Source of the DNA: Candidatus Bathyarchaeota archaeon
GTDB lineage: Archaea > Thermoproteota > Bathyarchaeia > TCS64
Direction: 5' to 3'
Length of the DNA stretch: 37,213 nt
Assembly: GCA_018396865.1 (NCBI GenBank)
Contig: JAGTRB010000016.1
Span: 1 to 37,213, forward strand
Part shown: positions 3,226 through 37,164 of the stretch, piece by piece
Layout of the letters: every line of letters begins with the position of its first letter
Numbering within the stretch: position 1 is the stretch's first letter
Translations under genes and position numbers: made by a program
The notes under the pieces: model-generated
The model's input: the letters and a program-made list of their open reading frames with translations, nothing else
Database searches by the model: none
Told to the model about the DNA's origin: nothing

Positions 3226-3963
3226 CTAGACGGGCCCGGCTGCGAACTCAACCCTGTCAAGGTTTCTCCCTTTAGAAGTTCTCTTTAGGAGTCTTATAGA
3301 TCCGAGCTCGCCGGTTCTTCTCACGTGTAGGCCCTTGCACGCCGAGATATCCCAACCCTCAATCTCAACTATACGGATCCATTCAGCATCTTTAGGAAGA
3401 TCAAAGGTGATCTTCCCATAACTCCTCAGCCTTGATATGGCCTCAATCCTATCCAGTATCTCTATCTTCACGGGGCGGTTCTCCACTACTATCCTGTTGG
3501 CCGTGAACTCTATTCTTGGGAGGCTCCTCTTCAGCTCATCCCTGTCGATTTCTAGGTCGAACCTGGTTTTATCTGCGGAGACGTGGGAGCCCATGATCCT
3601 GGCCCTTGGGAGCTCCCTCTCGAGGGTGGCCCAGAGGATATGGGAGGCTGTGTGGTTCCTCATCAGCCCATACCTATGGTTCCAGTCCACCTCTCCATCC
3701 ACCGGGTCTCCTGGGTTGAAGACTCCTTCAAGCCTGTCGCATAGGTGGTAGATGACCCCGTCCAACTCGACGGCTGAAGATACTACGGCTAAGCCGTGGG
3801 GTCCATGGATCTCCCCCATATCCGAGTCTTGGCCTCCCCCCTCTGGGTGGAAGGCTGTCTGGTCTAGGACTAGGGCGTTCCATCCATTTATTATGGATTG
3901 GGCGAGGACGGTGGCCTTGAACTCCTTAACATATGGGTCTTCGAGGGATAGGAGCCTGGTCAT
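3226..3963 (-). CDS. alaX: Alanyl-tRNA editing protein (AlaX type)
   Basis: Stand-alone editing protein that hydrolyses Ser/Gly mischarged on tRNA-Ala. Visible motifs are QTAFHPEGGGQDSD near the N-terminus and the four zinc ligands H104 and H108 (HTASH) and C209 and H213 (CKGLH), using the start chosen here. About 245 residues is the medium/AlaX-M class, without the alanyl-tRNA synthetase catalytic domain. The frame extends 11 codons upstream to a TTG at 3996, but ATG 3963 is preceded by a purine-rich AGAAGAGGAA ribosome-binding site and begins at family-like sequence (MTRLLSLEDPYVKEF), so I chose it. It lies 55 nt downstream of the metal ATPase on the same strand and may share its transcript. 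Confidence 0.9.
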   Translation of the reverse strand: MTRLLSLEDPYVKEFKATVLAQSIINGWNALVLDQTAFHPEGGGQDSDMGEIHGPHGLAVVSSAVELDGVIYHLCDRLEGVFNPGDPVDGEVDWNHRYGLMRNHTASHILWATLERELPRARIMGSHVSADKTRFDLEIDRDELKRSLPRIEFTANRIVVENRPVKIEILDRIEAISRLRSYGKITFDLPKDAEWIRIVEIEGWDISACKGLHVRRTGELGSIRLLKRTSKGRNLDRVEFAAGPV

Positions 3964-4018
3964 CGATATTCCTCTTCTCACAACTACCAATATCAACTAT
4001 GGTTTCATGTTTGGTCTT

Positions 4019-5950
4019 CTAGGCTGATGGTTTAACTCTTGTCACTCTTATCGTGTTTAGGATGAGGGTTAATGTAAGGCCGTCATCTCCCGCCGCCACG
4101 GCCGTCCATAGAGGGATCAGGCCCAGCATGCCCAGGATGCCTATGGTGATCTTCGCCGCTATCGATATGAGTATGTTCTGTCTCGCAATCTCAACGGTCT
4201 TCTTACTCAGTTTAATCATGTATGGTATCTTGATGAGCTCGTCCTTCACAAGGACTACGTCCGCAGACTCCAGAGCCATGTCGACCCTGCTCCCACCCAT
4301 GGCTATCCCGATGTCTGAGGCTGCTAGGGCTGGGGCGTCGTTCACCCCGTCCCCGACCATGGCGACCATCCCGTGCCTAATCCTCATCCTCTCGACTATG
4401 CCGAGTTTATCCTCCGGAAGGAGTCCAGCGTAGAACTCATCAACCCCGAGCCTCTCCGCAGTATCCAGGGCTATCTCTGAGCGGTCCCCCGTGAGCATGA
4501 CCGTCTTGATCCCCATCCCCCTTAGAACCTCTACCGCCCTTTTGGCATCCCTCCTGGCCTCATCCATGAGGCATATGGATGCGAGAGCCTCACCCCCTAT
4601 CGATATGCAGACGGCTGTGTGCCTGTCGTTCTTGTAGAGCCCCTCCATCCACCCGCAGTCGCACCCATAATGTTTCATCAGCTCCAGGCTTCCCACCGCC
4701 ACGAAGGAGTCCTCAACATAACCAGCGATCCCCATACCCGGGATCTCCTCGGGGTTGATGACCCTGAGCCCGGCGTAGTCGAGCCCCCTCTCAGAGGCCC
4801 ATCTGACTATGGCCTGGGCTGCCGGATGGTTGGAGTACTGCTCGAGGGCTGCGGCGTAGGCCAGAGCCTTATCCTCTTGAGTTCCCACCCATCTGGCCTC
4901 GTGGACTGAGGGCCTCCCCAGGGTGAGGGTTCCCGTCTTGTCGAAGAGGACGGCCCTGACCCTTGCCATCCTCTCGAGGTGCACACCTCCCTTTATTACG
5001 ACCCCCCTCCTCGCCGCCGTGGTTATCGCGGTGAAGATGGATGCAGGGACCGAGACTAGGAGGGCGCTGGGGCAGGAGATCACGATGAGGGTTAGGGCCC
5101 TGTATATCCAGGTCGATGGGGGGTCCCCCGTCAGCCGTGGCATGGCTGTGACCGAGGCAAGGGCTAGGAGTAAGACTATGGGCACATAGAACCTGGAGAA
5201 CCTCTCCACCACCCCCTCAACCCTGGCCTTCCTCCTCCTAGATTCCTCGACGAGCCTCCCGATCCTCGAGACAAGGGCCTCCTCGGCTCTCCTTCTAACC
5301 ATGACCTTGAGAACCCCGCTCGTGTTCAGGGTGCCCGCGTAGACCTCCTCCCCCCTACCCCTCAACACTGGGGTGGACTCCCCCGTAACCAGGGACTGGT
5401 CGATGTAGGAGGATCCCTCAACAATCTCGCCATCCAGGGGGATCCTCTCCCCAACCCTGACCAGGAGGGTCATCCCCGGCTCTACCTTGAGCAGGCTCAT
5501 CCTCCTCTCAACACCATCGACCAGCACGCTCGCCTCCTCAGGCATGTATGATGATAGCCCCTCAACCGCCCTCCTCGCCCTATACTCTATGAAGCCCTCT
5601 AGGTACTCGGAGATGGAGTAGAGGAGCAGGACGGTCGCGGCCTCGAGCAGATGGCCAAGGTACAGGGCCCCAAGGGAGGCAGCTGACATGAGGAACTCAA
5701 CTGAAAGCCTCCTCTCTAGGAGGAACTCTCTTAGACCGAGATACCCGATGTAGACCGCTATGGAGATGACTGAGATGTGGTATATGAGGCTCGAGGCGGT
5801 AACAGCCTCCTCCAGTAGTGGAGCGAGGTTTAGTGGGGGCCCTCCCAGAAACCAGTCTAGTATAGCGGAGATGGCGATGGTAAAACCTAGGAGAACTGCA
5901 AGGAGGAGCCCTATTTCATCATGATGATCCTCGCTTTCCCTCAAACTCAA
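4019..5950 (-). CDS. P1B-type heavy-metal-transporting ATPase (Zn/Cd/Co-like), without N-terminal HMA domain
   Basis: 643 residues. ATP-driven metal efflux pump of the inner membrane. Actuator TGES is at 189-192, the membrane metal motif CPS at 293-295 (ISCPSALLVSVP), the phosphorylation site D337 in DKTGTLT, the P1B hallmark HP at 375-376 (SNHPAAQ), and the hinge MVGDGVNDAP at about 531-540. The last membrane helix has a GDDG, comparable to the DxG aspartate used by ZntA-type Zn/Cd pumps. The protein begins with membrane helices (about residues 15-35 and 55-75), so there is no cysteine-rich HMA domain. CPS instead of CPC makes the metal uncertain. Start is a TTG; an AT-rich TATA-like stretch lies about 25-35 bp upstream. 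A NikR regulator is about 640 bp away, divergent; direct control is not shown. Confidence 0.93.
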   Translation of the reverse strand: MSLRESEDHHDEIGLLLAVLLGFTIAISAILDWFLGGPPLNLAPLLEEAVTASSLIYHISVISIAVYIGYLGLREFLLERRLSVEFLMSAASLGALYLGHLLEAATVLLLYSISEYLEGFIEYRARRAVEGLSSYMPEEASVLVDGVERRMSLLKVEPGMTLLVRVGERIPLDGEIVEGSSYIDQSLVTGESTPVLRGRGEEVYAGTLNTSGVLKVMVRRRAEEALVSRIGRLVEESRRRKARVEGVVERFSRFYVPIVLLLALASVTAMPRLTGDPPSTWIYRALTLIVISCPSALLVSVPASIFTAITTAARRGVVIKGGVHLERMARVRAVLFDKTGTLTLGRPSVHEARWVGTQEDKALAYAAALEQYSNHPAAQAIVRWASERGLDYAGLRVINPEEIPGMGIAGYVEDSFVAVGSLELMKHYGCDCGWMEGLYKNDRHTAVCISIGGEALASICLMDEARRDAKRAVEVLRGMGIKTVMLTGDRSEIALDTAERLGVDEFYAGLLPEDKLGIVERMRIRHGMVAMVGDGVNDAPALAASDIGIAMGGSRVDMALESADVVLVKDELIKIPYMIKLSKKTVEIARQNILISIAAKITIGILGMLGLIPLWTAVAAGDDGLTLTLILNTIRVTRVKPSA

Positions 5951-27910: not shown

Positions 27911-28276
27911 CTATATGTTGGTTTCTATCTCCTTCTTTTTATGATCCTTCAAAATTTTTTCGAATATTGGTTTTAAATTTGGTAGATCTTCTTTAACTGT
28001 TTTCCAAACTCTCTTTAAATCTACCCCAAAATATTCGTGAATAAGTTTGTCCCTCATTCCAGCTATATCTTTCCATGGTATTTGCGGATAAAGTTTTTTC
28101 ACAGAGTTGGGAATCTTCTTTACTGCCTCTCCAATTATTTCCAAGGCTCTAATGACCGCGTAAATCGTCCTTTTATCCTTTTCAAATTCATCATAGCTCA
28201 TTTCTTTCAAAAAATTTAATGCATTTTCCATCGCCTCTATAATATCCTCTATATAATCCAAAAATTCCCTTTTCAT
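27911..28276 (-). CDS. hepT: HepT-like toxin (HEPN RNase, DUF86)
   Basis: 121 residues. The HEPN active-site motif R-x4-H-x-Y is intact (R75, H80, Y82 in MRDKLIHEYFG). Y82 corresponds to the tyrosine AMPylated by the partner antitoxin in characterised MntA-HepT pairs, which inactivates the RNase. Strongly AT-rich and lysine-rich compared with the neighbours, as expected for a mobile module. Start overlaps the mntA stop by 4 nt (ATGA). mntA is upstream on the same strand. Confidence 0.9.
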   Translation of the reverse strand: MKREFLDYIEDIIEAMENALNFLKEMSYDEFEKDKRTIYAVIRALEIIGEAVKKIPNSVKKLYPQIPWKDIAGMRDKLIHEYFGVDLKRVWKTVKEDLPNLKPIFEKILKDHKKKEIETNI

Positions 28277-28578
28277 ATTATGATCACTTCTTCTAGGATC
28301 TTTTTTCCTATCCTTTTTTTTAAGGTGTTTTTTTCTACAAGGTCAACCTTAATTCCTAGCTCTTCGCTCAAATAGTTCTCCAGTCTGATAAAATCTAACA
28401 GACTCAATTTGTCTGAATCTTCAAACTCGACCAATATATCTAAATCACTTCCCTTTTTCTGTTGGCCTCTTACATATGATCCAAAAATACCAATCGATTT
28501 AACTTCAAATTTTTCCCTTAAGAATGGCTTTAATCCCTCTAATCTTATCTTTATCTCATCAATTTTTTCATCTTTCAT
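28273..28578 (-). CDS. mntA: MntA-like antitoxin (minimal nucleotidyltransferase)
   Basis: 101 residues from ATG 28578; a TTG at 28587 is also possible. Minimal nucleotidyltransferase motif GSYVRGQQKKGSDLD (G-S-x10-D-x-D; G33-S34, D45, D47) is complete, followed by ILVEF. In the known mechanism it transfers AMP to HepT tyrosine. AT-rich, lysine-rich, shares the composition of hepT and is unlike flanking genes, indicating they moved together. A TCTATATTG stretch just upstream suggests a short-leader promoter. Confidence 0.9.
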   Translation of the reverse strand: MKDEKIDEIKIRLEGLKPFLREKFEVKSIGIFGSYVRGQQKKGSDLDILVEFEDSDKLSLLDFIRLENYLSEELGIKVDLVEKNTLKKRIGKKILEEVIII

Positions 28579-28800
28579 ATCTAACAATATAGATTCAACT
28601 TCAAATTTTTAAAGGTTTTCGATCTTAAAGCCGTCCTTCATAGATTTCTAAGGTTTTATTTTTTCAGTCCTAGATTCTTTTTCAAGAGCCTCCTTCAATC
28701 TTCTCAGGTTTCATGGGGAAGTGCATAAGTCGGATGATTTAACGGCCTCTCCCAAAAGTCCAAAAGATAAAGGCCTATGAGCATGTATAAGGATGGGCTT

Positions 28801-29735: not shown

Positions 29736-32069
29736 TCAGTGTAGGCTGAGTCTCTCGGCCTTCGATGATCCATCTGGGTTCCTGCTGACCCTTATTATGT
29801 TGGCTGCCTCCTCCTCCCCTGCTCCGTGGTGGGTTACTAGGAGGACCTGGGGTATCCTTTTTGAGGCCTCTGATATCTGGCTCATCAGCTGGGGGAGGTT
29901 TTCTGAGTCCACCCCGTAGGTCGGCTCGTCCAGTATCAGGAGGTTCCTGTGCCCTAGGACGTTGAGGAGGGCTATCCTGAGGGAGAGGGCTATGAGGGTC
30001 TGGTGTCCTCCTCCGACCCTCTTGGCTGGTATGTATTCCTCCAGGCCTGTGGGCTGGACCTGGGCCTGGTAGGATTCGGGGTCTATCTTGAAGGCTTTGT
30101 AGATCCTCTGGTCTGTCAGGGAGTTGTATATCCTCAGGGCCTCCCCCGCCACCTCCCTCAAGGCTCTTCTCCTCCCCTCCTCTATCCCCATCCTCAGCTT
30201 CTGAACCATCTCTGAGGTTGTCTTGGCCCTCTCCAGCCTCCTCTCTATGGCCTCGACTTTTTCTTCTATTTCTTTCTTATCCTTTTTATGTTTATCATAA
30301 TCTTTAACCAATTTCTCCAATCTATTTTTCTTCTCTTCTAGTTCAATTCTTTTCTCTTCCATTTCTTCTATGCTTATTGGGAGTTTCGCTGCTATCTTCT
30401 CCTTTAGTTCAGGATCTTTCGGGTCTATTGGGAGTATCAGCCTTTTCAGATATTCAGAGATTTTCTCCGTTGCATTTTCTATATTTAATTGGAGTTCCCT
30501 CTTCCTCTCTTCTAGTTGTTTGACCCTTGAAACAGTGCCTTTGAGGTTTTTAAGATTTTCTTGGAGCACTGCCAGCTCCTTAGACTTCTCCAGGTGTGAA
30601 GACTCCAGTTTTACAAGGTTCTCGTTCATATTTGTGAGCGTCTCTGACAACTCCTTCTCTGAGGCCCCTTCCAGGTGGATCTTGAGCTCCGACTGGAAAC
30701 CTTGGAGCTGCTTTACCCTCGCGGCCGCCTCGTTCGAGTCCTTCCTCAGACCCTCTAGCCTGCTCCTGAGGTCGAGGTGCTCTCTCATGACCTCTTTAAG
30801 CTCTATCTCCAGCTCTCTCTGCATCTCACCCTTATCCTCTATTAGCCGAAGTAGGAGTTCTGGGGTTATCCTCTGCCCGCAGGTTGGGCACTCTGGGGCC
30901 CCCTTCATTAGGAGCTCCTCATGGTTTCTTATCTCCTCCTCCAGAGCGGACTTCCTACCCGATAGCTCGTTCCTCCTCTCCTCTATCGATGCTAGCCTAA
31001 CCTCCAGTTCCCTTATGGAGTTCATAAGCTCCTGCTCCCATGCCTTCTCAAGGCCTATGAGCTCATCGAGCTCCTCGGGTGTGGAGGCCCCAGCCACCTG
31101 GAGGATGTACCGGATCCTCTGGAGGCGTCCCTCGAGGCTCTCCCTCGTCCTCCTCAGCCTCTCCACCTCGCCCGCCAGCCTCCTGGCCTCTATCTCGGTC
31201 CTGGTCAGCCTCCCTGTGGCCTCCTCTAGCATCCTCTCCAGCTCGGTTGGGCTTCCGGACTTCCACTCTTCAAGGGTTCTCTTCAGGTGGAGCTCCGCCT
31301 CCCTGTGCTCCTCCATGTACTCTTCTCGGGCCCTCAAGGTTTCTAGGAGGCCTCTCAGCTCTTCAGACTCCGCCCTTGATAGGAGGTTCTCGAGCTGCTC
31401 CACCTCGTTTTTTAGGGGGTTGATCTGGGCCTCTAGGGTCTTTATGTAGCCCTCCAGCCTTGGAAGGTCCCCCACCCTATAGGCCTCTAATAGGGTCTTT
31501 GCATCCCTCCCCTCGTACCTCTCCAGCTCTCGTTCTAGGTCTGTGAGCTGGGCCTCCAGCTCCTTCATCAGGCTTATTCCCAGGATGGAGTCCATATCCT
31601 CCCTCTTGGGCTCAAGGATGTCTGTGAGCTCTCCCTGCCTAACGTAGACTAGGTTCAGGAACTTCTTCATGCTAAGGCCTGTAAGCTCTGTTATCCTCCT
31701 CCTAAGGTCCTCCTCCCCCTCCAGGTGGGCCTCCTCCCCGTTGATGGTCAGCCTCAGCCTCTCGGTTCTGAAGCCCTCCTCCTCCCCCCTCCTCATGGTT
31801 CTCCCCTCCCTCTCCACCTCCCTCTCCCTATTGTCTGGGGTTCTCAGGGAGAGCTTGACCGACAATCTCCTAGCCGTATCCTGGAGCCTCGAGACTAGTA
31901 GCCTCTTCTGGACCCCTGGAACCTCCCCGTACAGAGCCGTCAGTATGGCCTCCAGTATGGTGGTCTTCCCCGACGAGTTCCTCCCCGTTATCAGGTTGAG
32001 GCCTGGGGAGAACTCTATCCTAGCCTCCCTGTATCCCTCGAAGCCCCTGATCTCCAGGCTTCTGAGCAT
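29736..32069 (-). CDS. rad50: DNA double-strand break repair ATPase Rad50
   Basis: 777 residues, somewhat shorter than Pyrococcus Rad50. Walker A is G29-RNSSGKT36, Q-loop Q145 in VRQGEL, zinc hook C394-PTC397 in the middle of long coiled coils (about 170-380 and 400-640), Walker B LLILDEPT (about 710-717), D-loop YGVDSEN and the switch histidine in LLVTHHG. The ABC signature, normally LSGGE/Q, reads VGGGHQ (685-690), so the serine is glycine. Forms a complex with Mre11 that tethers and processes DNA ends. Adjacent to mre11 with no gap, mre11 being upstream. HerA and NurA, often next to it in archaea, are not in this window. Confidence 0.95.
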   Translation of the reverse strand: MLRSLEIRGFEGYREARIEFSPGLNLITGRNSSGKTTILEAILTALYGEVPGVQKRLLVSRLQDTARRLSVKLSLRTPDNREREVEREGRTMRRGEEEGFRTERLRLTINGEEAHLEGEEDLRRRITELTGLSMKKFLNLVYVRQGELTDILEPKREDMDSILGISLMKELEAQLTDLERELERYEGRDAKTLLEAYRVGDLPRLEGYIKTLEAQINPLKNEVEQLENLLSRAESEELRGLLETLRAREEYMEEHREAELHLKRTLEEWKSGSPTELERMLEEATGRLTRTEIEARRLAGEVERLRRTRESLEGRLQRIRYILQVAGASTPEELDELIGLEKAWEQELMNSIRELEVRLASIEERRNELSGRKSALEEEIRNHEELLMKGAPECPTCGQRITPELLLRLIEDKGEMQRELEIELKEVMREHLDLRSRLEGLRKDSNEAAARVKQLQGFQSELKIHLEGASEKELSETLTNMNENLVKLESSHLEKSKELAVLQENLKNLKGTVSRVKQLEERKRELQLNIENATEKISEYLKRLILPIDPKDPELKEKIAAKLPISIEEMEEKRIELEEKKNRLEKLVKDYDKHKKDKKEIEEKVEAIERRLERAKTTSEMVQKLRMGIEEGRRRALREVAGEALRIYNSLTDQRIYKAFKIDPESYQAQVQPTGLEEYIPAKRVGGGHQTLIALSLRIALLNVLGHRNLLILDEPTYGVDSENLPQLMSQISEASKRIPQVLLVTHHGAGEEEAANIIRVSRNPDGSSKAERLSLH

Positions 32070-33335
32070 CTATCCCTCCTCCCCCATCACTCTCTTCCAC
32101 CTCTCCACATACTCCCGGCGCCTTGACTCCGTCAGCAGCCCTGTCCTCGTGCTGGCCTCCTCCTCCAGGGCCAGTTCGACCTCGTTGACCAGCTCGAGGG
32201 CCTTGGCCCTAGCCTCCTCATCTAGAGGCTTGAAGAGCTCCATCAGGAGCTCCTCCCTGTTCAGGGTCCCTCGAAGGATTTGGGTTACCCCCTTCTCGTT
32301 GAGGCGGCTCTCCACCTCCACGTGGAGGAGGAGGGGCTCCTCCTCCTTCACCCTCCTGATCAGGTTCTCGAGCTCCAACTCAAGGTCGTATCTCCCCTCC
32401 TCCACCACCCCCTCAAGCGCTATCCTTAGGATCCCCTTCACCCCTTGCCCCTCCAGCTCCTCTGTGTAATCTCTGATCTGGTTTAGGGTGGCGTCCTTGA
32501 ACCACTCCCTCGGCCTCGGGGCCTCACCTCCCTCGACGGTGGCGCTCTTGATCCCGTATAGGGGTTTTATGGGCCTGAACTGGACTTTGACCCCCTCTTC
32601 GAGGTCTATGATGAGGGCTCCGTGCGGGCCTGTATCTGAGAGGTCTATGGCCTCCGTGGCTCCCGGTGTGAGGATCTTAACCCCGTCAAGGTCTGTGGTC
32701 GGGCTGTACTGGTGGTGGTGGCCAGAGATGACCAGGTCCGCCCCGAGCCTCCTGACGTTGTCTAGGCTTACGATCTGGTGGCCTGGGACGCCTGGTGGTA
32801 TATCCTGGTGGCCCTCTATAAACATGTGGGCTATGAAGAGCTTGACCTTGGACCTTGAGGCCTCTAGGGAGTTCCTTATGACCCCCTCAGCCTCCCTTAT
32901 CTTTGGGGATGGGTAGGGTGTATAGCCAAGCCCGACGGCTGCGACTATACCATCTTCATAGAGCTCTCTCTCCCCTCTTAGGGTCCCCTCTCCCAGGACC
33001 TCCAGGTACTTGGCCAAGGGGTGTTTCACATAGTCTAGGGCGTTGTTCTCAGGGGTTCCGTCGTGGTTCCCCCTCACCATGAGGATCTTCACCTCCCCAT
33101 CCAGCCCGTCGACGAGCCTCTGGAGCTCATCCTTCACCAGTATCGAGTCCCCTGGGGTCATGCTCCTCCTCTCGAAGAGGTCTCCAGCGTGGATGACATA
33201 GTCCACGTCCTCCCTGATGAAGAGGTCCACCGCCCTTGAGAAGGCATGTCTGAAGGCCCTCCTCCTATGCTCGGCCACGGTGTTCGGCACAGCCCGGCCT
33301 ATGTGGGTGTCGCTGAAGACCCCTATCCTAACCAT
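32070..33335 (-). CDS. mre11: DNA repair nuclease Mre11
   Basis: 421 residues. Phosphoesterase motifs are all present: DTHIG (D9, H11), HAGDLFE (D52), VRGNHD (N90, H91), FIAHMFIEGHQ (H170) and SGHHHQY (H206, H208). These bind two Mn ions and carry out the 3'-5' exonuclease and endonuclease activity. The C-terminal 180 residues form the capping domain and the Rad50-binding helices. First gene of an mre11-rad50 operon. A TTTATAAAG TATA-like box at about 33447-33456 would give a leader of roughly 90 nt. Confidence 0.95.
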   Translation of the reverse strand: MVRIGVFSDTHIGRAVPNTVAEHRRRAFRHAFSRAVDLFIREDVDYVIHAGDLFERRSMTPGDSILVKDELQRLVDGLDGEVKILMVRGNHDGTPENNALDYVKHPLAKYLEVLGEGTLRGERELYEDGIVAAVGLGYTPYPSPKIREAEGVIRNSLEASRSKVKLFIAHMFIEGHQDIPPGVPGHQIVSLDNVRRLGADLVISGHHHQYSPTTDLDGVKILTPGATEAIDLSDTGPHGALIIDLEEGVKVQFRPIKPLYGIKSATVEGGEAPRPREWFKDATLNQIRDYTEELEGQGVKGILRIALEGVVEEGRYDLELELENLIRRVKEEEPLLLHVEVESRLNEKGVTQILRGTLNREELLMELFKPLDEEARAKALELVNEVELALEEEASTRTGLLTESRRREYVERWKRVMGEEG

Positions 33336-35311: not shown

Positions 35312-35749
35312 CTATAAGCTATCTCCCCGTAGCTCTTTGAGTATTTGGCTTGCCTTTACCGCGTTGTCGCTGAATCTGTTGAGGAGTTTGGTGTCGTAGG
35401 TTATAAGCTTGGAGCTTACGGCTCTGGCTAGGGCTATGTATAGGGCGTCATACACCGTTATGTCCTTGTCGAAGGCTATCTCCACCGCTTCTTGTAGCAG
35501 ATCGAGGTCGCTAATGGTTTTTAATTGTAGGTCCTTAAGGGCGTTTAAAGCCCTGACTACATCAATGGAGGTGAGGCCATGGATGTATCTCAGGGCGTTG
35601 GAGAACTCCGTGTAGAGTAGTGAGGGTATGTGGATCTCCAGCCTTCCCTCGAGGAATAGGTCTCTAAGTTCTCGCATCTCAGGGTGCTCATCTTCTTTGA
35701 TGAACCATTTGACGGCTGCGCTGGCGTCTAGGACTAGGCTTTGGGGCAT
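35312..35749 (-). CDS. vapC: PIN-domain toxin (VapC-type RNase)
   Basis: 145 residues. The PIN acidic residues are in place: D8 (VLDASAAVKWF), E48 (YTEFSNALR), D101 (TVYDALYIALA) and D119 (ITYDTKLLN). Such proteins are Mg-dependent RNases neutralised by a co-encoded antitoxin. Its start overlaps the upstream VapB gene by 16 nt, showing translational coupling. Codon use is closer to the chromosomal norm than that of mntA-hepT. Confidence 0.9.
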   Translation of the reverse strand: MPQSLVLDASAAVKWFIKEDEHPEMRELRDLFLEGRLEIHIPSLLYTEFSNALRYIHGLTSIDVVRALNALKDLQLKTISDLDLLQEAVEIAFDKDITVYDALYIALARAVSSKLITYDTKLLNRFSDNAVKASQILKELRGDSL

Positions 35750-35967
35750 CTTCTATCCCTGAACTCCCTTATAATCTCGGCTGTAGGCCTCTCGGGCTTG
35801 GCCTTGGATGAGATCTCCTCCATAACCTCCAGAGCCCTCTTGACCTCCTCCTCACGGGCCTTCTCCTCGATGGTTCTCCTAACAATCTCGCTCCAGTTGA
35901 TGTGAGCGAGTCTATCCATACGCTCCTTGAGAACCCTTGGAATCCTGACTGTTATCTTGACAGACAT
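35734..35967 (-). CDS. vapB: VapB-type antitoxin (ribbon-helix-helix)
   Basis: 77 residues from ATG 35967; the frame runs 10 codons further, but MSVKITVRIPRVLKERMDRL is the typical RHH start. The DNA-binding strand VKITVRIP and helices (LKERMDRLAHINWSEIVRRTIEEKA) are followed by a charged tail (EVMEEISSKAKPERPTAEIIREF) that should fold over VapC. Autoregulation is typical; ACAGACA direct repeats near the start may be its operator. Confidence 0.85.
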   Translation of the reverse strand: MSVKITVRIPRVLKERMDRLAHINWSEIVRRTIEEKAREEEVKRALEVMEEISSKAKPERPTAEIIREFRDRRCPKA

Positions 35968-35999
35968 ATTGATGCTGGACAAAATATGTACAGACAAAT
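35960..35999. promoter_or_regulatory. ACAGACA direct repeats at the vapBC promoter
   Basis: ACAGACATAT (35960-35969) and ACAGACAAAT (35990-35999) are 30 bp apart, about three helical turns, one overlapping the vapB start codon and the other about 25-30 bp upstream near the TATA-like ATATATTTG. The spacing suits cooperative binding by the RHH antitoxin dimer pair. Confidence 0.35.
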
Positions 36000-36188: not shown

Positions 36189-36221
36189 ATCTCAGCCCTC
36201 TCCACAGGAGAGGGCTGAGAT
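36189..36221. repeat. Perfect 15-bp-stem hairpin with 3-nt loop
   Basis: 36189-36203 (ATCTCAGCCCTCTCC) is the exact reverse complement of 36207-36221, with ACA as the loop. It lies between the DUF2283 stub (plus) and the 3' end of the coiled-coil gene (minus). There is no U-tract on either side, so it is not a classical intrinsic terminator; it could stabilise mRNA ends or be a REP-like or transposon-related palindrome. I saw no other copy in the window. Confidence 0.75.
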
Positions 36222-36246: not shown

Positions 36247-37164
36247 TTAAAGGTGCTCTTCGATCTCTTTTCCTAGGATTAGCCTGATGTTATGCTTCTC
36301 CGTAAGGTTCTCTAGTATTTCAACTATGTCTGGCGTTGTGTGGCTGACTGCGAGCACCGTTAATAGCGGCCTCTTCTTGAATATTCCCTCAACGACCCTT
36401 ACGCGCTCTAGGATTTTCTCGATCTCTCGCTCCGCCTCCACTATATCCCTGATGGTTAGTGTCGCCTCGCCGACGATTAGTGGCTCCTCGCAGAAGATGT
36501 TAATCTCTAGGAGCTTGCCCTCATGGATCAGAAACTTCCTCTCAACATTTGCTTCATGATATCCTATTTCATCCAGGTGGAACTCTATGAAGGATCTGGC
36601 GTAGTCATCAAATGCCATTCCGATGGCTCTCCTCAAGTCCTTAAAGCCATCCCTCACATATCTCCACAGCCTATCTTGGCTTATTCTTAACGCTCTCACC
36701 TCCTCCCAGATCTTGGTGAATTCCTCGTCATGTCTCCTGAATCCGGTTGTCATATCCTCCCTTAACTTTGCTATCTCCTCATGAATCCTGGCTATCTCAG
36801 TCCAGATCTTGGTGAATTCCTCGTCATGTCTCCTAAAACCTGTGATCATATCTTCCCTCAAATTTGCGATCTCCTTATGAAGCCCAGCTATCTCCCTCCA
36901 TATCTTTGTCTGCTCTTCCCTAAGCCCAGCCATCTCATTCCATATCTTTATCTGTTCTTCCCTAAGCCCAACGATCTCATTCCATATCTTTGTCTGTTCT
37001 TCCCTGAGTCTTAATTGCTCCTCGGTTATGCTGTCAAGCCTTTTCAGTATCTCGGATAGACCAATATGGCCGGCGACGGCGTAGCGAAACTCGACATCCC
37101 TATCTAGTAGCTCTAGAAACTCTCTCTTTAGAGACTCCATTGTCTTGTCACTGTCCGCTGACAT
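36247..37164 (-). CDS. Coiled-coil protein with degenerate PD-(D/E)XK-like domain (DUF3782-like)
   Basis: 305 residues. Residues 53-158 form a repeat-built coiled coil: three 14-residue units (LREEQTKIWNEIVG type, 53-94) and two 32-residue units (L/I-H-x-E-I-A-x-L-R-E-D-M-x-T-G-F-R-R..., 95-158). The C-terminal domain (160-305) resembles the nuclease-fold domain of archaeal DUF3782/DUF1626 proteins: LLEINIFCEEPLIVGEATLTI, then LLTVLAVSHTTPDIVE. The catalytic pattern expected there (D...E-x-K) reads N222 and E233-A-T235, so the fold may be inactive. Function unknown; such genes are often multi-copy in archaea. A TATA-like GATATTTAAG lies just upstream at the window edge. Confidence 0.72.
   Translation of the reverse strand: MSADSDKTMESLKREFLELLDRDVEFRYAVAGHIGLSEILKRLDSITEEQLRLREEQTKIWNEIVGLREEQIKIWNEMAGLREEQTKIWREIAGLHKEIANLREDMITGFRRHDEEFTKIWTEIARIHEEIAKLREDMTTGFRRHDEEFTKIWEEVRALRISQDRLWRYVRDGFKDLRRAIGMAFDDYARSFIEFHLDEIGYHEANVERKFLIHEGKLLEINIFCEEPLIVGEATLTIRDIVEAEREIEKILERVRVVEGIFKKRPLLTVLAVSHTTPDIVEILENLTEKHNIRLILGKEIEEHL
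36691..37008. repeat. In-frame tandem repeats: 3 x 42 bp and 2 x 96 bp
   Basis: Three 42-bp units (36883-37008) encode the 14-residue repeats; two 96-bp units (36691-36882) encode the 32-residue repeats, with over 30 identical consecutive bases between the two (around 36708 and 36804). High identity implies recent expansion by slippage or unequal crossover. Confidence 0.8.

Follow-up and report, generated by a model that had tools for sequence, protein, structure and literature searches.

The protein studied here is encoded at one end of contig JAGTRB010000016.1 of a Candidatus Bathyarchaeota archaeon (assembly GCA_018396865.1), which was analysed over its whole length of 37,213 nucleotides (the window, or contig C16 of genome G000), and it joins a conserved N-terminal head, a coiled-coil rod and a PD-(D/E)XK-like C-terminal tip (36247..37164, minus strand; an open reading frame of 305 amino acids, the coordinates including the stop codon). 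In two classes of tips carried by such rods, the motif II position of the nuclease fold holds either Asp or Asn and no other residue in 139 domains, and this position seems to have switched repeatedly, as the trees of both classes need repeated switches. The C16 family represents a new form of coiled-coil nuclease of the known DUF1626/DUF3782 kind. The explanation we favour, to which we give about an even chance, is that the rod holds a nucleic-acid-binding tip whose cleavage is weakened in the Asn members.

The tip (residues 165-305; 36250..36672, minus strand) was modelled with AlphaFold on residues 151-305 together with three relatives, an alignment of four sequences. The best of five models had a predicted local distance difference test (pLDDT) score of 83, with core blocks mostly at 88-95, and its secondary structure by DSSP was H-H-E-E-E-H-E-H-E-H, or H-E-E-E-H-E-H-E past the end of the coil. 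In VIA-align 2 the tip gave Z scores of 11.0 with Cdn1, 10.7 with VC1899, 10.5 with AF1548, 10.0 with Card1, 9.6 with Can2, 9.3 with XisH and 9.1 with EndoMS, and small GTPases reached about Z 5 only, below the PD-(D/E)XK proteins. Foldseek on the tip returned no match at E 0.001, the best being Card1 at E 0.034, and small GTPases were among the top rows. The full-length AlphaFold model (pLDDT 80, predicted template modelling score 0.42) showed a helix at residues 2-22, a single helix at residues 24-163 and the same tip. By these models the tip is a PD-(D/E)XK fold, as had been claimed in a first reading made from the sequence without database searches (the sequence-only reading). The segments E220-I-N222 and G-E233-A-T235 sit on two strands of the predicted fold.

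The sequence-only reading had described N222 in place of Asp and E233-A-T235 in place of E-x-K, which is what the alignments show, and had called the nuclease apparently dead. The motif II Asp of active PD-(D/E)XK nucleases is indeed replaced by N222 in the C16 protein; in motif III, E233 is kept, T235 replaces the usual Lys of the fold and K250 lies on the next helix. Residues were counted in 81 of 83 class-2 tips, the class of the C16 gene, after two with a score of 60 or less had been dropped, and in 58 fetched class-3 tips, a subset of those found by profile, both counts including near-duplicate rows from close genomes. In class 2, position 222 is Asp in 52 tips and Asn in 29, E220 is present in 71/81 and E233 in 78/81, position 235 is Thr in 73, Lys in 4, Ser in 3 and Ala in 1, and position 250 is Lys in 69, Gln in 11 and Arg in 1. 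The most conserved residues of the class-2 tip include P228, G232, E233, T235 and K250. Because K250 is conserved in 69 of these 81 tips, the motif III lysine seems to have been relocated, not lost, and all four members with Lys235 carry Gln at 250, as expected if the lysine moved between both places. A migration of this lysine to the next helix was proposed for DUF1626 (Knizewski 2007, PMC1913061, in the part of the paper available to us). The reading of E-A-T as the mark of a dead site is thus not supported, since Thr there pairs with a next-helix lysine in most relatives; what stands of the dead-nuclease claim is the change of Asp to Asn, the one likely disabling change left in the C16 tip. 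The class-wide K250, like the conserved head, had escaped the sequence-only reading. All 29 class-2 Asn members retain E233, T235 and K250.

Class 3 shows the same alternation. Its position matching 222 is Asn in 34 tips and Asp in 24, the second Glu is retained in 56/58, the motif III residue is Thr in 29, Lys in 15, Ser in 12, Ala in 1 and Arg in 1, and the helix position holds Lys in 40, Arg in 7 and other residues in 11. The canonical class, defined by PF12644 and PF07788, has Asp in 24/24 rows with a residue there, one row being gapped. After clustering at 80% identity, 41 Asp and 23 Asn remained in class 2 (64 clusters), and 22 Asp and 30 Asn in class 3 (52 clusters). As a control, in 65 well-filled columns of class 2 the second residue reaches at least 20%, and only the Asp/Asn column has no third residue; among 67 such columns of class 3 there are two, the Asp/Asn column and one Glu/Asp column. 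Asn occurs in 0/15 class-3 tips with a motif III Lys, against 34/43 tips without it, and in 0/4 class-2 tips with Lys235 (p 0.29, not significant). We do not claim that Asn depends on the loss of the motif III Lys, because the class-3 association, though marked in raw counts, depends on a small number of branches (about 0.8 of 5 independent pairs). The sampled tips of genome G000 comprise seven with Asn, four of class 2 and three of class 3, and one canonical tip with Asp, in a per-genome table that lacks the genome assignment of many class-3 loci.

The trees were quick ones from which the motif columns had been excluded, and many of their forks are weak; parsimony counts 13 Asp/Asn changes in class 2 and 10 in class 3, of which at least 4 and at least 5, respectively, fall on starred branches. 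The ratio of nonsynonymous to synonymous substitution rates (dN/dS) of the Asn-type gene on contig C15 was 0.18 against genome G001 and 0.10 against genome G002, that of the Asn-type class-3 gene at 45 kb of C10 against its G001 relative was 0.18, and that of the C16 tip against L015, a locus of another assembly with identical architecture and motif, was 0.17. With ratios of 0.10-0.18, purifying selection acts on the Asn-type relatives. Because the position is restricted to Asp and Asn throughout the 139 domains and selection is purifying, the change does not look like decay.

The C16 protein has an EFR head, a heptad coil and a C-terminal tip. The head, of about 32 residues (residues 9-40 approximately; 37045..37140, minus strand), was defined by a profile, and a Pfam search with it gave no match over the cut-off. 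It is present in 8 members of genome G000, and its profile matches 163 of the 398 genomes of the phylum, with up to 13 matches per genome. All three tip classes carry this same head. Class 2 (profile A1) was found in 71/398 genomes and class 3 (profile A2) in 97/398, both tallies being lower bounds with at most 10 candidates scored per genome. In profile comparison, class 2 matched the canonical class with 93% probability and class 3 with 84%, and class 3 compared directly with the canonical class gave 3%. The C16 protein itself matches neither PF07788 (PDDEXK_10/DUF1626) nor PF12644 (DUF3782) over the cut-off, and both were absent from the best 25 of its 26 families at E ≤ 1. In genome scans, PF07788 had no match at the position of the C16 gene, and the PF12644 matches were limited to members on C1 and C9. 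Both Pfam models also have matches in Sulfolobus acidocaldarius. An ABC_tran_CTD match in Pfam and matches to SMC proteins were below the cut-off and were attributed to the coil.

Genome G000 has about ten members, several of which share the head and differ in rod length and tip state: the C16 gene, one at the C10 end, one on C15, those at 45 kb and 74 kb of C10 and at 1.9 kb of C6, and others at the C9 start, at 3.6-4.0 kb of C9 (broken), at the C28 end and at 109 kb of C1. A candidate for the active paralogue for which the sequence-only reading had proposed to look is the last of these, which has the canonical D...E-x-K motif. The broken C9 member (3567-4027; L047, L052) is a canonical DUF3782/PDDEXK_10 gene spread over several frames. 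A headless coiled-coil relative on C6 (L051, 8419-9327) contains 14-residue units in near-identical copies, seven by visual count, and a tip in which the motif II Asn is paired, unusually, with an intact E-V-K; it matches no Pfam family over the cut-off. Tandem pairs in two genomes (L124, 4069-5993; L125, 3425-5313) consist of a class-2 protein of the Asp type and, next to it, a short copy in which Lys replaces both conserved Glu residues, and the short copy is perhaps an inactive partner.

The rod (residues 41-163 approximately; 36676..37044, minus strand) lies within the long predicted helix 24-163. Repeat search and Tandem Repeats Finder (scores 203 and 290) bear out the 14- and 32-residue repeats of the sequence-only reading as three tandem 42-nt units, each of 14 residues or two heptads (36880..37008, minus strand), and two tandem 96-nt units of 32 residues each (36706..36897, minus strand). 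Identity to the reference copy is 87-89% for the 42-nt units, with only 64% for a fourth match, and the two 96-nt units are 84% identical, so that the description of the repeat DNA as nearly identical is too strong for this gene (84-89%), and holds in some paralogues, where identity is 100%. The view that coil length is still changing is supported by syntenic orthologues of three species with several flanking genes in common, in which the 42-bp unit is present in two copies on contig C15 of G000, one on C7 of G001 and four on C97 of G002, each plus one diverged unit; the units are identical inside each gene and 98-100% identical between genes. The gene at 45 kb of C10 has three units and its G001 relative two, with one common neighbour seen.

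Coil length was taken as the distance from head motif to tip, leaving out members with no recognised head motif or with an anchor gap (16/81 in class 2, 10/58 in class 3 and 7/25 in the canonical class). It ranges from 74 to 314 residues in class 2 and from 70 to 231 in class 3. Modulo 7, one phase is favoured by 37/65 class-2 and 32/48 class-3 members, or by 20/46 and 17/30 distinct lengths, and moduli 5, 8 and 11 showed no significant departure in either class. Length changes by whole 42-bp units keep the heptad phase. Since any coiled coil needs heptad continuity, the bias shows a real coil whose length changes are mostly whole heptads, and is no proof that head and tip are geometrically coupled.

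The start of the gene lies 49 bp from the contig end, and the assembly at this locus therefore deserves caution. A second copy at the C10 end shares a 563-bp stretch with 96.8% identity. The similarity ends at position 36202, within a perfect hairpin of 15-bp arms and a 3-nt loop (36189..36221, no strand assigned) about 25 bp beyond the stop codon, and none was found between the two copies past that point. The hairpin is not claimed as a terminator, a run of T being absent 3' of it on the strand of the gene. Four family members of G000 (on C16, C10, C9 and C28) lie at contig ends, a pattern suggesting assembly breaks caused by the repeats, and coil counts from such genomes thus need care.

Several observations weigh against the favoured explanation. 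The five tip models, built on that four-sequence alignment, span pLDDT values from 55 to 83 (83, 79, 75, 67 and 55), and residues 160-180 of the full-length model are below pLDDT 50. Among the class-2 Asp members, 7/52 have no lysine at either place and one has Arg; in class 3, 8/34 Asn members have neither Lys nor Arg on the helix, two of which also have Asp for the second Glu, and two of the three class-3 tips of G000 are among those eight. The phase bias is weaker in the canonical class (6/18), and the C16 gene itself, at 5 modulo 7, lies outside the main phase; its 32-residue units, two in number, contribute 4 modulo 7 each. The recent C16/C10 pair has a dN/dS of 0.54, resting on nine changed codons.

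The neighbourhood of the gene includes, on the same strand and about 250 bp downstream, a VapBC-like pair (35312-35997), the VapB being just below its NCBIfam cut-off and the VapC being read from sequence with no NCBIfam match. Further away are a HEPN/MNT (HepT-MntA-like) pair (27911-28587), both below their NCBIfam cut-offs, and an adjacent pair that reads like Rad50 and Mre11 (29736-33335). Genes read as HEPN, MNT, VapB and VapC recur near other members, and Pfam confirms a single representative each of HEPN and MNT; operons that combine a HEPN group with MNT and DUF1626 genes have been listed (PMC3710099, in the part available to us). Five queries derived from the window showed no excess of toxin-antitoxin (TA) genes, with 4/65 family loci against 4/40 other stretches of family-carrying genomes, a weak test because the HEPN and MNT queries matched nothing in either set despite such genes near members. 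No conserved partner gene or pathway was recognised among the neighbour clusters, which were not systematically annotated, the largest non-syntenic ones being nine genes in seven loci that read as ABC-transporter-like, and TA-like genes. No McrB-like partner was noticed near the family, no profile search having been made for one, and no match was found in viral contigs, plasmids or phages that would indicate a mobile-element origin. The PADLOC model PDLC01085, whose name C3a181 we take to denote a type III accessory cluster, matches the C16 protein at residues 11-255 (E 8e-15; the model lacks a curated cut-off) and the canonical relative L054 over model positions 1-225 of 226. It carries the label diadenylate cyclase, and this label looks wrong, as the model matches a nuclease-fold family including its head.

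With no partner recognised, no TA excess in a weak test, the Cas10 of G000 on another contig and no viral, plasmid or phage match, the best reading is mechanical, in which the Asp tip would cut and the Asn tip would hold. The protein is probably an intracellular rod, in which the head and the long coiled coil would form a parallel oligomer and the number of heptads in the coil would determine how far out the tip is held. Asp-type members are, from motif and fold, probably metal-dependent nucleases, most of them with the migrated lysine. In Asn-type tips such as that of C16 the metal-binding Asp is changed to Asn while E220, E233, T235 and K250 stay, and such a tip has most likely kept its binding of a nucleic-acid substrate but cuts slowly or never; nucleic-acid binding by the C16 tip is plausible. 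The common head may point to a common docking partner or a joint assembly. For the decoy role that had also been suggested, no supporting evidence was found.

Asn-type tips could instead be working nucleases, with Asn acting as an uncharged metal ligand and the helix lysine, E220 and E233 completing the site. The retention of E233, T235 and K250 in all the class-2 Asn members is stricter than in the class-2 Asp members, and the repeated switching suggests that some function survives the change. We nevertheless consider this alternative unlikely, since position 222 is where the fold normally has its metal-binding Asp, the fold matches include an entry for Card1 D294N (D294 is not mapped to N222), every canonical row with a residue there has Asp, and class-3 tips with a motif III Lys never have Asn, an association that is not phylogenetically independent. 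The change of Asp to Asn is commonly engineered to inactivate enzymes of the PD-(D/E)XK type. It is more doubtful still that the tip is a purely structural cap, the protein a spacer or scaffold and its catalytic history irrelevant: half of the protein is coil and head, which all tip classes have in common, and large differences in length are tolerated, but a cap would have no need of the highly conserved pocket residues P228, G232, E233, T235 and K250.

The position of the gene start so close to the contig end, the 96.8% copy at the C10 end, the dN/dS of 0.54 for this pair and the broken canonical member on C9 would all suit a decaying pseudo-enzyme near loss or an assembly artefact; we regard this as very improbable, because three cross-species Asn-type pairs and the comparison with L015 gave ratios of 0.10-0.18 and 0.17, and L015, from a separate assembly, has the same architecture and motif. 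There is equally little to be expected from the idea of an accessory effector of type III CRISPR, which derives from the matches of PDLC01085 to the C16 protein and L054, since the diadenylate cyclase label does not fit a PD-(D/E)XK fold, coils inflate matches of this kind, and the sole Cas10 of G000 is on contig C21, on which no family member was found (contigs being fragments).

As compared to known systems, the canonical relatives L054 and L064 carry the same head and exceed the cut-offs of both DUF1626/PDDEXK_10 (PF07788) and DUF3782 (PF12644), of COG5493, whereas the C16 protein matches neither model and has Asn for Asp, and the sampled class-2 and class-3 tips match neither model. RmuC, whose nuclease domain we take to be PD-(D/E)XK, offers a likeness of plan. 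The parts of the papers cited next that were available to us describe three further systems. The Shield protein ShdA has a transmembrane helix, a long coil and an RmuC-like nuclease, and RmuC and ShdA are like the C16 family in plan only, with an N-terminal anchor or head, a long coil and a C-terminal nuclease domain (PMC11090510). CnuC of type II/III CoCoNuT systems has coiled coils and an inactivated PD-(D/E)XK domain to which nucleic-acid binding is ascribed, but its catalytic motif is reported as lost, whereas the C16 family keeps most of the motif (PMC11090510). The DUF3782 alpha/beta coiled coils of Hartmann 2016 belong to the same broad family, which includes endonucleases of archaea that have a coiled coil at the N-terminus, and relatives whose coils contain tandem repeats; the solved construct is bacterial, with nine-residue repeats that form beta-layers, unlike the 14- and 32-residue units of the C16 coil (PMC4786415). 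In those portions of the open-licence literature that were available to us, no description was found of the Asp/Asn switching, the head or the heptad-step lengths.

A wider form of the favoured explanation, which we offer as a rather improbable speculation, is a family-wide switch, in which rods with the same head would toggle their tips repeatedly between Asp (cutting) and Asn (holding) through one residue change, tune their length by heptads, and co-assemble or compete as cutters and holders that dock at a common site. In its bolder form, Asn would be a latent Asp, activated by deamidation at high temperature. The family is large (163/398 genomes), yet no assigned function was found for it. 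Its lengths, which vary in heptad steps, illustrate cleanly how a molecular spacer evolves by quantised increments. To our knowledge, PD-(D/E)XK pseudo-nucleases are usually described as single-lineage losses; the repeated Asp/Asn switching in two tip classes would provide a natural series on the role that a nuclease fold plays once cutting is off.
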